The notes beneath the pieces were generated by a model. The model worked only from the letters and a program-made list of their open reading frames with translations. It was not told where the DNA came from and made no database searches. A program made the translations under genes and the position numbers. This document shows positions 9,300-21,395 of a DNA stretch of 64,000 nucleotides, one piece after another. Within the stretch, counting starts at the first letter, position 1, and every line of letters starts with the position of its first letter. The DNA is from Rhizobacter sp. AJA081-3 (GTDB lineage: Bacteria > Pseudomonadota > Gammaproteobacteria > Burkholderiales > Burkholderiaceae_C): contig NZ_CP059067.1 in the NCBI RefSeq assembly GCF_017795745.1, positions 1,364,001-1,428,000 of the forward strand. Reading direction: 5' to 3'.

Positions 9300-10786
9300 T
9301 GGCCTCTCCGCTGAACTACGTGCTCGACCACGACCGCGCCGGCGGCTACTGGGGCGCCGTCTACGTGTTCACGGCCATCAAGGGCCTGCAGGTGGTGATC
9401 GACGGCCCCGTGGGCTGCGAGAACCTGCCGGTGACCAGCGTGCTGCACTACACCGACGCGCTGCCGCCGCACGAACTGCCGATCGTCGTCACCGGCCTGG
9501 CCGAAGAGCAGCTTGGCCGCGAGGGCACCGAAGGCTCGATGAAGCGCGCCCATGCGGCGCTCGACCCCGACCTGCCCAGCGTCGTCGTCACCGGCTCGAT
9601 CGCCGAGATGATCGGCGGCGGCGTCACGCCCGAAGGCACGACGATTGCTCGCTTCCTGCCGCGCACCATCGACGAAGACCAGTGGCAGTGCGCCAACCGC
9701 GCGATGTACTGGCTGTGGACCGAATACGGCCTGCGCAAGGTGCCGCAGCGCGTGCCCTTCGCCGAGCGTCCCGCGGGCGAGCGCCCGCGCGTGAACATCA
9801 TCGGCCCCTGCTACGGCACCTTCAATTCGCCCAGCGACCTGGCCGAGATCCGCCGCCTGGTGCAGGGCATCGGCGCCGAGGTGAACATGGTGTTCCCGCT
9901 CGGCAGCCACCTGGCCGACGTGTCGCGACTGGTCGAGGCCGACGTCAACATCTGCATGTACCGCGAGTTCGGCCGCATGCTGTGCGAGGCGCTGGAGCGC
10001 CCCTACCTGCAGGCGCCGATCGGCCTGCACAGCACCACCGCCTTCCTGCGCGAACTCGGCCGCTTGCTCAACCTCGACCCCGAGCCCTTCATCGAGCGCG
10101 AGAAGCACACCACGATCAAGCCGGTGTGGGACCTGTGGCGCTCGGTCACGCAGGACTTCTTCGCCACCGCAAGCTTCGCGGTCGTTGCCGGCGAGACCTA
10201 CGCGCGCGGGCTGCGCCACTTCCTCGAAGACGAGCTCGGCCTGCCCTGCCAGTTCGCGGTGTCGCGCACGGCCGGCACGAAGACCGACAACGCCGAGGTG
10301 CGCCGCCTGGTGCGCGACAAGACGCCGCTGGTGATGTTCGGCAGCTTCAATGAACGCATGTACCTCGCCGAAGTCGGCGCACGCGGGCCGATGAAGCCGG
10401 CGTTCATCCCGGCCTCGTTCCCCGGCGCGATCATCCGCCGCGCCACCGGCACGCCCTTCATGGGCTACGCCGGCGCCACCTACGTGGTGCAGGAGGTGTG
10501 CAACGCGCTGTTCGATGCGCTGTTCCACATCCTGCCGCTGGGCACGGACCTCGACCAGGTCGATGCCACGCCGGCCAGGCACACCAACGAGCTGCCCTGG
10601 GACGACGACGCCAAGGCGCTGCTCGACGACCTCGTCGAGACGCAGCCGGTGCTCGTGCGCATTTCGGCGGCCAAGCGCCTGCGCGACCGTGCCGAGTCCG
10701 AGGCCCGGCGCCTGGGCGAAGAACGCGTCAGCGCGCAGCGCATGGCGCAATCGAGCAACGTTTCGCTGCAAGGGGTGCCCGCATGA
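9299..10786 (+). CDS. bchZ: Chlorophyllide a reductase subunit Z
   Basis: 495-aa NifK-like subunit. It begins with [20 protein letters not shown] and contains the [20 protein letters not shown] Cys loop, typical of BchZ. The ATG overlaps the bchY stop. The long upstream continuation of this frame inside bchY is a shadow. The C-terminal region, with the ITPARHTN-like segment ([17 protein letters not shown]) and a charged tail, matches the family. The stop overlaps the next start (ATGA), leading into the puf region without a terminator. Confidence 0.95.
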
Positions 10787-10899
10787 AGCAGCACCTCGCA
10801 CACCCGACGTCGCGGCATCCTGCCGCGGCTGCCTCTGTCGCGCAGGCATCGCGCGCGGCTGGTCGCAAGGCCAAGCTGAAGGAGTTATCCCATGGCTGA
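10783..10899 (+). CDS. 38-codon ORF bridging bchZ and pufB (possible leader peptide)
   Basis: Unrecognised. The ATG overlaps the bchZ stop as ATGA, and the TGA stop lies inside the pufB coding start (overlap of 8 nt). The pufB Shine-Dalgarno AAGGAG lies within it. The peptide is 38 aa, rich in His/Ala/Lys/Arg, with no membrane segment (starts [15 protein letters not shown]). Rhodobacter has pufQ/pufK at this place, but I see no PufQ-like membrane helix. The start/stop overlaps on both sides suggest translational coupling of bchZ to pufB. It could also be chance in a short gap. Confidence 0.4.
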
Positions 10900-11038
10900 A
10901 AGAAAGGGCTCGATCTCGGGCCTGACCGACGAAGAGGCCCAGGAGTTCCATCGGTTCTGGGTCCAGGGTTTCGTGGGCTTCACGGCGATCGCCGTCGTCG
11001 CGCACGTGCTCGTGTGGGCCTGGCGCCCCTGGCTCTGA
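10892..11038 (+). CDS. pufB: LH1 (B870) light-harvesting beta subunit
   Basis: 48-aa single-span antenna peptide. It has the N-terminal [10 protein letters not shown] region with His20, a transmembrane helix with bacteriochlorophyll-ligand His38 in VVAHVL, and a C-terminal WAWRPWL aromatic motif that hydrogen-bonds the pigment. AAGGAG lies about 6 nt before the ATG. It is normally followed directly by pufA, but here an extra reading frame intervenes. Confidence 0.96.
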
Positions 11039-11075
11039 TTAGTCTGACGCACTGACCCAGCAAAGGGGGATTGCC

Positions 11076-11303
11076 ATGGCCCATACCCAAAGTGCACTTC
11101 ACAGGCACGACGCGCAGAGCAAGTACAACAAAAGCTACTACTTGATCTTCGCGATGAGCTTTGTCGTGTTTCTCGCGATCGCCCTCGCCGGGCAGTTGCT
11201 GGGAGCGCACTGGCGAACCTGGTTGCCCGGGGCAGAAGGCGTCAAGTCCTTGTTTGGCGGCGTCAAGGCTGCTGTCTATACCTTCATGTCGCATCTACTG
11301 TAG
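11076..11303 (+). CDS. Unassigned 75-aa single-span membrane protein between pufB and pufA
   Basis: Not recognised. The ATG has a good ribosome site (AAAGGGG, 11059-11065) and the frame is followed 12 nt later by pufA. The protein has a polar, His-rich N-terminus (about 1-20), one hydrophobic helix at about 21-43 (YYLIFAMSFVVFLAIALAG), a short GAHWRTWLPG turn, and an amphipathic C-terminal helix ending YTFMSHLL. It is not an LH alpha or beta peptide: the only His near the helix is His45 at its end, not a mid-membrane ligand. The one-helix, tailed architecture and size recall PufX or accessory LH1 polypeptides (protein W, LH1 gamma), but I see no sequence match. It is probably an LH1-RC component or assembly factor, by position only. 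Confidence 0.8.
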   Translation: MAHTQSALHRHDAQSKYNKSYYLIFAMSFVVFLAIALAGQLLGAHWRTWLPGAEGVKSLFGGVKAAVYTFMSHLL

Positions 11304-11315
11304 GAGCTTGGAATC

Positions 11316-11519
11316 ATGTGGAGAATCTGGCGTTTGTTCGATCCTTTGCGGGCGATGGTCGTCCAAGGGATCTTCCTGTTTGGCCTCGCAGCGATGATTC
11401 ACCTCATCCTGTTGAGCACGAACAAGTTCAACTGGCTCGATGGCCCGAAGAAGGCCACGGTGGCGTCTGCCAACGCCCCGATGCCGACCGCTGTTGCTTC
11501 GCTCACGCTGACGAAGTAA
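11316..11519 (+). CDS. pufA: LH1 (B870) light-harvesting alpha subunit
   Basis: 67-aa antenna peptide. It opens with [14 protein letters not shown], then a helix with the pigment-ligating His in [11 protein letters not shown], then FNWLDG. The C-terminal extension ([14 protein letters not shown] and on) is longer than in most LH1 alpha chains and Ala/Thr/Pro-rich, a trait known for Rubrivivax-type alpha subunits. AGGAG lies 9 nt before the ATG. A large inverted repeat sits between it and pufL. Confidence 0.96.
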
Positions 11520-11542
11520 CACGCAGCCCGAAGCAGCGGGCG

Positions 11543-11606
11543 GGGTCGGCGCGACGAGCACCGTTCCCCACCCGTTTGCCCGGGCGGCGCCGCGTGGCGC
11601 CGACCC
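11543..11606 (+). promoter_or_regulatory. pufA-pufL intercistronic stem-loop
   Basis: Perfect 10-nt arms GGGTCGGCGC (11543-11552) and GCGCCGACCC (11597-11606), with a smaller GGCGCC-GCGT-GGCGCC hairpin nested near the 3' arm. In other purple bacteria a structure at this place protects the 3' end of the pufBA message, giving more antenna than reaction-centre mRNA. There is no U-tract after it, so it is a stability element or partial attenuator rather than a strong terminator. Confidence 0.7.
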
Positions 11607-11634
11607 GGAGTTCTTACAGGCCGGAGGACCGAAC

Positions 11635-12474
11635 ATGGCCATGTTGAGTTTCGAAAGAAAGTACCGCGTACGCGGTGGCACGCTGATTGGCGGAGATCTG
11701 TTCGACTTCTGGGTCGGGCCGTTCTGGGTCGGATTCTTCGGCGTCACCACTTTCTTCTTCTCGTTCCTCGGGATCGCGATGATCCTGTGGGGCGCGGCCA
11801 TGGGCCCGACCTGGAACCTCTGGCAGATCAACATCGCGCCGCCCGACCTGTCGTACGGTCTGCGCATGGCGCCGCTGCTCGAAGGCGGGCTGTGGCAGCT
11901 CATCACGGTGTGCGCACTCGGTGCGTTCATCTCGTGGGCCATGCGCGAGGTCGAGATCTGCCGCAAGCTGGGCATGGGGCTGCACGTGCCCATCGCCTTC
12001 GGCTTCGCCATCTTTGCTTACTTCACGCTGGTGGTGATCCGCCCGGTGCTGATGGGTGCCTGGGGCCACGGCTTCCCGTACGGCATCTACAGCCACCTCG
12101 ACTGGGTCAGCAACGTCGGCTACCAGTACCTGCACTTCCACTACAACCCGGCGCACATGATCGCCATCAGCTTCTTCTTCACGACGACGCTGGCACTGGC
12201 GATGCACGGGGGCCTGATCCTGTCGGCCACCAACCCGGGCAAGGGTGAGGTCGTGAAGACGCCGGCGCACGAAGACACCTTCTTCCGCGATGCCGTCGGC
12301 TACTCGATCGGCTCGCTGGGCATCCACCGTCTGGGGCTGTTCCTCGCGCTGGCCGCGGTGTTCTTCAGTGCGGTGTGCATCGTCATCAGCGGCCCGTTCT
12401 GGACGCGCGGCTGGCCCGAGTGGTGGGGCTGGTGGCTGAACCTGCCGATCTGGAGCCAGTGGCCCATCAAGTGA
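11635..12474 (+). CDS. pufL: Photosynthetic reaction centre L subunit
   Basis: 279-aa, five-helix core subunit that binds the special-pair and accessory bacteriochlorophylls, bacteriopheophytin and QA/QB with PufM. The start [15 protein letters not shown] and the segments [24 protein letters not shown] (pigment His) and GSLGIHRLG (Fe/QB-side His) are intact. A GGAGG box (CCGGAGGACC) precedes the ATG. pufM follows 16 nt later. Confidence 0.98.
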
Positions 12475-20999: not shown

Positions 21000-21227
21000 C
21001 TACTGCTTGGTGGCGGATTTCTCCACCAGAGCGAGCGTCGTCGGTTGCTGCGACTCGACTGCGGCCGCCTTCGTTGCCTTGGCGCCACCCTCGTAGTACT
21101 TGGGCAGCCAGGTGGTGTGCGTCAGCAGCGCGTAGTGCACTGCGAACGAACTCACCGCCACGGCGCCGAGCATCAGAGGGATGCCGACCGAAGGCTTGAC
21201 GACCAGCCAGATCTTTCCATAGATCAT
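21000..21227 (-). CDS. pucA: LH2 light-harvesting alpha subunit
   Basis: 75-aa antenna peptide. It opens [17 protein letters not shown], then a helix with pigment-ligating His in [10 protein letters not shown], then [12 protein letters not shown]-terminal tail of about 28 residues, rich in Ala/Thr/Lys, is longer than in most LH2 alpha chains and echoes the known extension in Rubrivivax. It lies 15 nt downstream of pucB with a GGAGCACC-type ribosome site. Confidence 0.95.
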
Positions 21228-21242
21228 GAGGTGCTCCTTCGG

Positions 21243-21395
21243 CTACTTGAGCCAGGGTGAATAGATGTACGCCAGCAGGTGAGCCAGCGCGGCGATCATG
21301 CCGAAGATCTGCGTGCCTTGAATGATGTGGCGATGCACTTCTTCGGATTCAGCTTCGGTCAGCCCTGTGGGCCATACCTTGTTTGGGTCCGCCAT
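21243..21395 (-). CDS. pucB: LH2 light-harvesting beta subunit
   Basis: 50-aa antenna peptide: MADPNKVWPTGLTEAESEEV, then HRHIIQGTQ with an N-terminal-side His for the B800 region, then a helix with ligand His in ALAHLLAY and a YSPWLK end. The start has GGAGAA upstream. It is the first gene of pucBAC, behind a strong PpsR-covered promoter. Confidence 0.95.
   Translation of the reverse strand: MADPNKVWPTGLTEAESEEVHRHIIQGTQIFGMIAALAHLLAYIYSPWLK

Follow-up and report, generated by a model that had tools for sequence, protein, structure and literature searches.

The gene at positions 11076..11303 on the forward strand of the window (the whole 64,000-nucleotide stretch of the Rhizobacter sp. AJA081-3 genome that was analysed) lies between pufB and pufA and encodes a polypeptide of 75 amino acids, here called X. 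Sequence comparison identifies X as a paralog of LH1 beta in which the pigment-ligating histidine is no longer kept, and its tail is homologous, as judged from profile comparison, to the C-terminal extension found in a long form of PufB.

The frame runs from ATG to TAG exactly over these positions and is preceded, six bases ahead of the ATG, by a Shine–Dalgarno-like AAAGGGGG read from the sequence (11062..11069, +), which bears out the initial annotation of a complete frame with its own ribosome site between the two antenna genes. The pufB gene (10892..11038, +) ends 37 bases before X and encodes a short LH1 beta of 48 residues which ends in WRPWL, has no tail and keeps both His20 and the bacteriochlorophyll (BChl) ligand His38. 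The pufA gene (11316..11519, +) starts 12 bases after X and encodes an LH1 alpha of 67 residues. Both genes score above the cut-offs of their NCBIfam equivalog models (pufB, NF040862, 86.1 bits against 61; pufA, NF040861, 66.4 bits against 35). They are followed by pufL (11635..12474, +), which encodes the reaction-centre L subunit (PF00124, 5.4e-98). The intergenic region between pufA and pufL (11520..11634, +) forms a stable stem-loop region (-62 kcal/mol, z -2.64, one of 200 shuffles as stable), and pufB, X and pufA are all located 5' of it, as had been noted for X. The pufB–X and X–pufA junctions fold no better than shuffles.

The leader just 5' of pufB (10805-10891) contains three short hairpins that are conserved across Burkholderiales puf operons, with a two-sided, pair-keeping change at seven of 15 predicted pairs in 20 hand-picked loci; they gave no match in Rfam at E up to 1. 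The leader also holds a frame of 38 residues (10784-10900), which may be the ORF1 of earlier papers; it seems to be conserved as RNA and not as protein, since in relatives similar bases fall into different reading frames. In R. sphaeroides the short ORF pufK, in the pufB-leader region, has been proposed to act as a gate for ribosomes into pufBA (PMC5725709). Two further LHC-family genes over the cut-off at 21105-21353 (-) of the window are probably the pucB and pucA of LH2.

Hydropathy gives one hydrophobic helix in X, in agreement with the initial annotation, and together with the AlphaFold2 helix and the alignment with PufB it places the transmembrane segment at about residues 21–44 (11136..11207, +). 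AlphaFold2 predicts a long helix at residues 9–42 and, at low confidence, a tail helix at residues 59–74 (mean pLDDT 67.7). The tail itself comprises residues 51–75, PGAEGVKSLFGGVKAAVYTFMSHLL (11226..11300, +). Its amphipathic character, which had also been claimed, is modest, with a moment of 0.255 that is equalled by 8.5% of shuffles. The histidine-rich N-terminus is present in the X of the window, but it is a local feature within the least constrained part of the protein. A search at E up to 0.001 found one copy of X in the 5.40-Mb genome, and no match was obtained in the plasmid collection searched.

The relationship to beta was apparent in several comparisons. An LH1 beta chain was retrieved from the PDB at 2.9e-9 by phmmer with X and at 2.1e-16 with the profile of the X family. 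Within the alignment of 37 of the family's 39 X sequences (alignment A1), the NCBIfam PufB model was listed for 16 members at E up to 1 (best 1.9e-10) and Pfam LHC for eight (best 4.4e-6). These family listings are to be read with care, as the window's own X is listed by neither model and the unrelated Pfam membrane families DUF2567 (seven of the 37) and DMT_YdcZ (five) are nearly as frequent as LHC. The most telling evidence is that of profiles. Comparison of the X profile with that of the Burkholderiales long PufB gave a score of 122.7 (best of 120 segment-wise column shuffles, 25.8) and with the PufB profile of another class a score of 89.7 (best shuffled score, 25.8). Kinship with PufA was rejected, the profile score being inside the shuffle range with 25 of 120 shuffles as high.

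His38 is present in all 121 distinct PufB sequences. At the corresponding place in the 130 distinct X sequences (both sets drawn from all Burkholderiales loci, near-copies included) the residue is Gln in 95, Thr in 12, Ser in ten, Ala in four, Lys, Leu and Glu in two each and Gly and Cys in one each, and a single X bears histidine (locus L032). In the window this residue is Gln40 (codon 11193..11195, +), which agrees with the earlier observation that X lacks the mid-helix histidine of antenna peptides. At the place of PufB His20 the window's X has Tyr22, and histidine is outside the nine commonest residues of X. Other beta residues are kept, namely Ala34 (128 of 130), Trp44 and Arg45 (129 each) and Trp47 (125). 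In beta polypeptides the histidine ligates BChl and a tryptophan bonds to the BChl acetyl group (PMC7806223, PMC10214105). When X is compared with long PufB (identified by sequence in PDB entries 8z81_B, 9m8m_B and 7xxf_B), the two share the helix, an alanine four residues before the ligand place, the WRxW motif and a PG...S tail; X differs in having neither the BChl-ligating histidine nor the SGLTxxEAxEFH N-terminus, and in forming a separate clade that coexists with ordinary PufB. In a quick tree of 74 columns, which carried a long-branch warning, all 71 distinct X tested fell on one side of a branch with SH-aLRT 100 and 88 PufB on the other. Pigment binding by X is unlikely, although it is conceivable because glutamine is able to ligate chlorophylls in other proteins.

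PufX, protein W and LH1 gamma, the polypeptides to which the initial annotation had likened X, are accessory membrane polypeptides of the core complex (in part after PMC9640540 and PMC7806223). Sequence searches of the PDB with X and with the family profile listed 17 and 41 distinct sequences, respectively. Apart from a few unrelated proteins these were antenna beta chains, and none was named as any of the three. The PDB searches thus lend no support to a kinship of X with them. Protein W has three predicted helices (PMC7806223) compared with the one hydrophobic helix of X, and the gamma-like peptide of Rpi. globiformis has 22 residues and the opposite orientation (PMC9640540).

Nor is X, which the initial annotation had suggested may be new, a new ORF, since it is already on record as ORF2 of Rubrivivax gelatinosus (PMC12817894); an ortholog in that species (locus L048) is 69% identical. 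What stands is that X is a conserved LH1-type polypeptide encoded within the pufB–pufA segment, as judged from homology and distribution. The R. gelatinosus puf operon is described as containing ORF1 and ORF2 with no assigned function, and ORF2, having low identity to PufA and PufA2 and no central histidine, was rejected as the source of pufA2; the section on ORF2 compares it with PufA and PufA2 and not with PufB (PMC12817894). In Roseateles depolymerans, ORF74 is situated between pufB and pufA by its locus tag, shares the major 1-kb transcript with pufBA and is among the three most induced loci; in a sigma-factor mutant it fell to 2.3%, with pufA at 0.7% and pufB at 1.1% (PMC10037100). ORF2 and ORF74 resemble X in position and size, ORF74 having been matched by position and not by sequence. 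We did not find X described as a ligandless PufB, or the tail pattern, in the open-licence PMC literature searched.

Selection on X was estimated from 44 close pairs of loci, each locus being used once, by the Nei–Gojobori method with pooled counts. The pairs were picked with equal X length, and pufB and pufA were counted in equal-length pairs only. The dN/dS of X is 0.35 in frame, compared with 1.20 and 1.45 out of frame, and falls from 0.66 in the N-terminus to 0.33 in the helix and 0.16 in the tail. The corresponding values for the neighbouring genes are 0.11 (pufL), 0.18 (pufB) and 0.17 (pufA), and the tail of X is thus constrained to about the same degree as PufB. By this codon analysis, X is a real and intact gene under purifying selection that is strongest on the tail.

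Of 88 phototrophic Burkholderiales genomes in which pufB could be read, 72 have X between pufB and pufA. The premise that pufB and pufA are normally adjacent therefore fails for this order, in which pufB–X–pufA is the usual arrangement. The denominator was obtained independently of X by searching for pufL, which was found in 47 of 299 genomes of the family and 46 of 399 of the order; with three shared these make 90 distinct genomes, from which two (L189 and L200) were dropped as they had cut contigs and no pufB. In one genome (G148) pufL and pufB were taken from two contigs. Within the family, 46 of the 299 genomes matched X, including the window's own. In 39 of these X is between pufB and pufA; in the other seven the match is the long PufB itself, with pufA directly after it. 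At the 118 loci measured, which come from overlapping genome sets, the X frame is 70–78 residues long and its place is constant (the start of one, at L017, was set by hand).

Named genomes were scanned as well, with a yield of 325 relatives that may include long PufB; the best 80 of these, selected by X, were kept. Among these 80 the pufB gene could be read at 79 loci and was short at every one. They include R. gelatinosus (two strains), R. benzoatilyticus, R. rivuli, R. albus, Piscinibacter aquaticus, P. defluvii and many uncultured betaproteobacteria, as well as two metagenome entries labelled Candidatus Fonsibacter and Bordetella parapertussis that we take to be misassignments. A search of the phylum with A1 matched 20 genomes outside the order, 15 of which were read (L205–L219). 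These belong to the same phylum and another class, and are thus taken to be Alphaproteobacteria.

The tail of X follows the WRxW(L/F) motif and in most members ends in (K/R)xAVYTFMSHL. Its valine is present in all 130 distinct X and its serine in 128. Long PufB, in which PGxxGY... stands at the place of the X tail, occurs in 12 of the 88 Burkholderiales genomes and at 13 of the 15 loci of the other class, one of them (L217) having an atypical tail. We compared the X tail with 22 long-PufB tails, 11 from Burkholderiales and 11 from the 15 loci of the other class. The profile score was 34.2 against 12.5 for the best of 300 column shuffles, and when the first five columns were omitted it was 23.1 against 12.9. 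On this comparison the two tails are homologous, and by analogy with beta the tail of X would be periplasmic. Long tails are present both in the other class and in Burkholderiales that have no X, which suggests that the long form is ancestral and that X arose as a duplicate of it; PufB may afterwards have lost the tail and X the ligand. In Rps. palustris the mature beta ends at Ala53, the 13 C-terminal residues have no density and mass spectra indicate cleavage (PMC7806223); in the literature covered, such cleavage is reported for this one species.

Of the 88 Burkholderiales genomes, 72 have X and a short PufB, 12 have a long PufB and no X, four have a short PufB and no X, and none has X together with a long PufB. 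For the association of X with short PufB a Fisher test gives 9e-12, with kinship disregarded. The four genomes with a short PufB and no X (L139, L174, L180 and L183) each have a single-helix ORF of about 75–90 residues 5' of pufB, at the classical position of pufQ, with a comparable tail at its end. A beta-like ORF was found upstream in all four, in none of the 12 long-PufB genomes and in none of the 68 X genomes with at least 450 upstream bases; the remaining four of the 72 X genomes have fewer bases upstream, which is too short to exclude an ORF. The profile used in this search was built from six ORFs (the four above, L225 and L227), which match it by construction; it added seven loci, and a hit at L181 (10.5 bits, E 0.022) was left uncounted. 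Each of the 88 puf operons appears from these searches to contain one tail carrier, which is X in 72, long PufB in 12 and the upstream ORF in four.

Kinship among the genomes is a confounder of the mutual exclusion of X and long PufB. A quick PufL tree has ten contrasts in its best version, with ten changes of X needed, and the three contrasts on well-supported branches give a sign-test p of 0.25. Genomes with long PufB and no X are interleaved on this tree with genomes that have short PufB and X (for example, L041 with L030 and L040 with L033), and this scatter of X suggests exchange, transfer, repeated loss or replacement of the pufB–X segment. A plain rule for all Proteobacteria, with the tail supplied either in cis or in trans, is ruled out by the other class, in which nine of the 15 loci have a long PufB in addition to the upstream ORF, while two (L218 and L219) have a short PufB with neither the upstream ORF nor a PufQ hit.

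X probably contributes to the building or the completion of the LH1 ring. In our view, an assembly role is slightly favoured over that of a permanent ring subunit. We put forward, as a tentative reading that falls somewhat short of an even chance, that X is an LH1 assembly factor acting in trans, with the tail as its working part. If the tail of PufB is removable after assembly, then it is most likely during assembly that a tail carried on a pigment-free beta of its own does its work. In the proposed mechanism X would act in trans in LH1 biogenesis and would, by means of its beta-like helix, associate with an alpha polypeptide as it is being made or sit where the ring is still growing, and its tail could do the job of the removable tail of long PufB in guiding, spacing or pigment-loading the alpha–beta units. 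X might then be released or kept at low copy, in a role comparable to that of PufQ, descent being unproven. The constraint on the tail, the cleavage in Rps. palustris and the existence of tail substitutes suggest assembly about as strongly as they suggest structure. Against assembly, the placing of X between the two antenna genes and the induction of ORF74 in the manner of pufBA (PMC10037100) suit a stoichiometric structural subunit equally well or better, and the beta residues kept in X would suit a position in the ring.

For these reasons of gene position and expression, and because of one PDB chain, a permanent place in LH1 is nearly as likely. X would then be a pigment-free beta that takes up one position or a few in the ring, or else an additional helix on its outside, and would give the ring a gap, a stop or a quinone gate. 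In its action it would resemble PufX, protein W or gamma, while being built from beta. The beta-like helix with its kept residues, the location ahead of the stem-loop and the presence of ORF74 on the major pufBA transcript (PMC10037100) are all in keeping with this. The chain in question is chain 4 of PDB entry 8k5o, a single beta-like chain of 105 residues beside 16 of another beta; it is annotated 'antenna complex alpha/beta subunit domain-containing' and is possibly a single-copy beta-like member of the ring. We found no solved RC-LH1 with a close beta, the best PDB match of the window's PufB being 63 bits, which leaves room for such a subunit. On the other hand, it is the tail and not the helix of X that is most constrained, and in the 16 of 88 genomes that lack X its place is taken by a PufB tail or an upstream ORF, which would be odd for a subunit that makes a ring gap.

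A less probable explanation, which we regard as doubtful, is that X is the PufQ of Burkholderiales, that is, a tetrapyrrole-flux or carrier protein descended from PufQ and relocated between pufB and pufA. PufQ (PF05398) is a non-structural, single-helix puf product of about 74 residues which is not a subunit of RC-LH1; its loss lowers RC-LH1 and LH2, its helix and C-terminus are conserved and its N-terminus is variable, and in R. sphaeroides a ferrochelatase interaction or an effect on porphyrin flux has been described (PMC5725709). It thus shares with X its size, single helix, operon and conservation pattern, and differs in lying 5' of pufB. PF05398 is not among the 19 families listed at E up to 1 for the 37 members of A1, which include X and 36 relatives. 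The genome of the window has no PufQ above the cut-off, a finding that would suit X in the place of PufQ but that also counts, together with the missing Pfam match and the lack of tail similarity, among the grounds on which we rejected X as PufQ itself. The profile similarity of X and PufQ is borderline (23.9, as high in one of 200 and one of 120 shuffles), and the PufQ tail does not match that of X (183 of 200 shuffles as good). The PufQ profile was made from nine of ten clear PufQ sequences, three further matches that barely exceeded the cut-off being left unused. It has no similarity to the two PufB profiles, for which 78 and 35 of 120 shuffles, respectively, reached as high a score. The PufQ tail is weakly similar to the long-PufB tail (three of 200 shuffles as good). 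All ten clear PufQ loci (at least 79 bits) have a short PufB of 49–51 residues, a point in favour of this reading, but these ten come from one bacterial family and the link with short PufB is therefore without independent replication. In our view, the likeness of PufQ and X is one of functional analogy rather than demonstrated kinship.

Beta-like single-helix ORFs without the pigment histidine were observed at the pufQ position at 13 loci, which are the four Burkholderiales loci L174, L180, L183 and L139 and, in the other class, L205, L206/L227, L207, L209, L210, L213, L214, L215/L225 and L217. The profile of these upstream ORFs scored 50.5 against X (best of 120 shuffles, 26.5) and 60.9 against long PufB (best shuffle, 20.7); its similarity to PufQ is borderline, with three of 120 shuffles as high. 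Two of the ORFs were scanned against the family models. The L225 ORF hit Pfam PufQ at E 0.021 and NCBIfam PufB at E 0.0012, both below the cut-off, and the L227 ORF had no family match. The relationship of these ORFs to X and the weak PufQ hit of one of the two tested speak for a connection of X with PufQ. It is very improbable indeed that X is a decaying duplicate of pufB, without function or just tolerated. Loss of the pigment ligand and a variable N-terminus would fit such a duplicate, but pseudogene status is ruled out by the frames at a constant place and by the dN/dS values, with the invariant valine and near-invariant serine of the tail pointing the same way.

X, the upstream ORFs and the removable long-PufB tail, perhaps with PufQ as well, could represent one antenna-derived, pigment-free assembly module that is supplied in cis or in trans. 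We consider this unlikely, but if it were true PufQ would have started out as an antenna protein. X stands amid the core photosynthesis genes in most phototrophic Burkholderiales surveyed and in the long-studied R. gelatinosus. Its recognition as a beta that lacks the ligand and bears a transferable tail provides a testable hypothesis for how the LH1 ring is built or closed; it suggests that two genes can share between them what a long PufB combines, and it offers a possible origin for the proteins found at the pufQ position.
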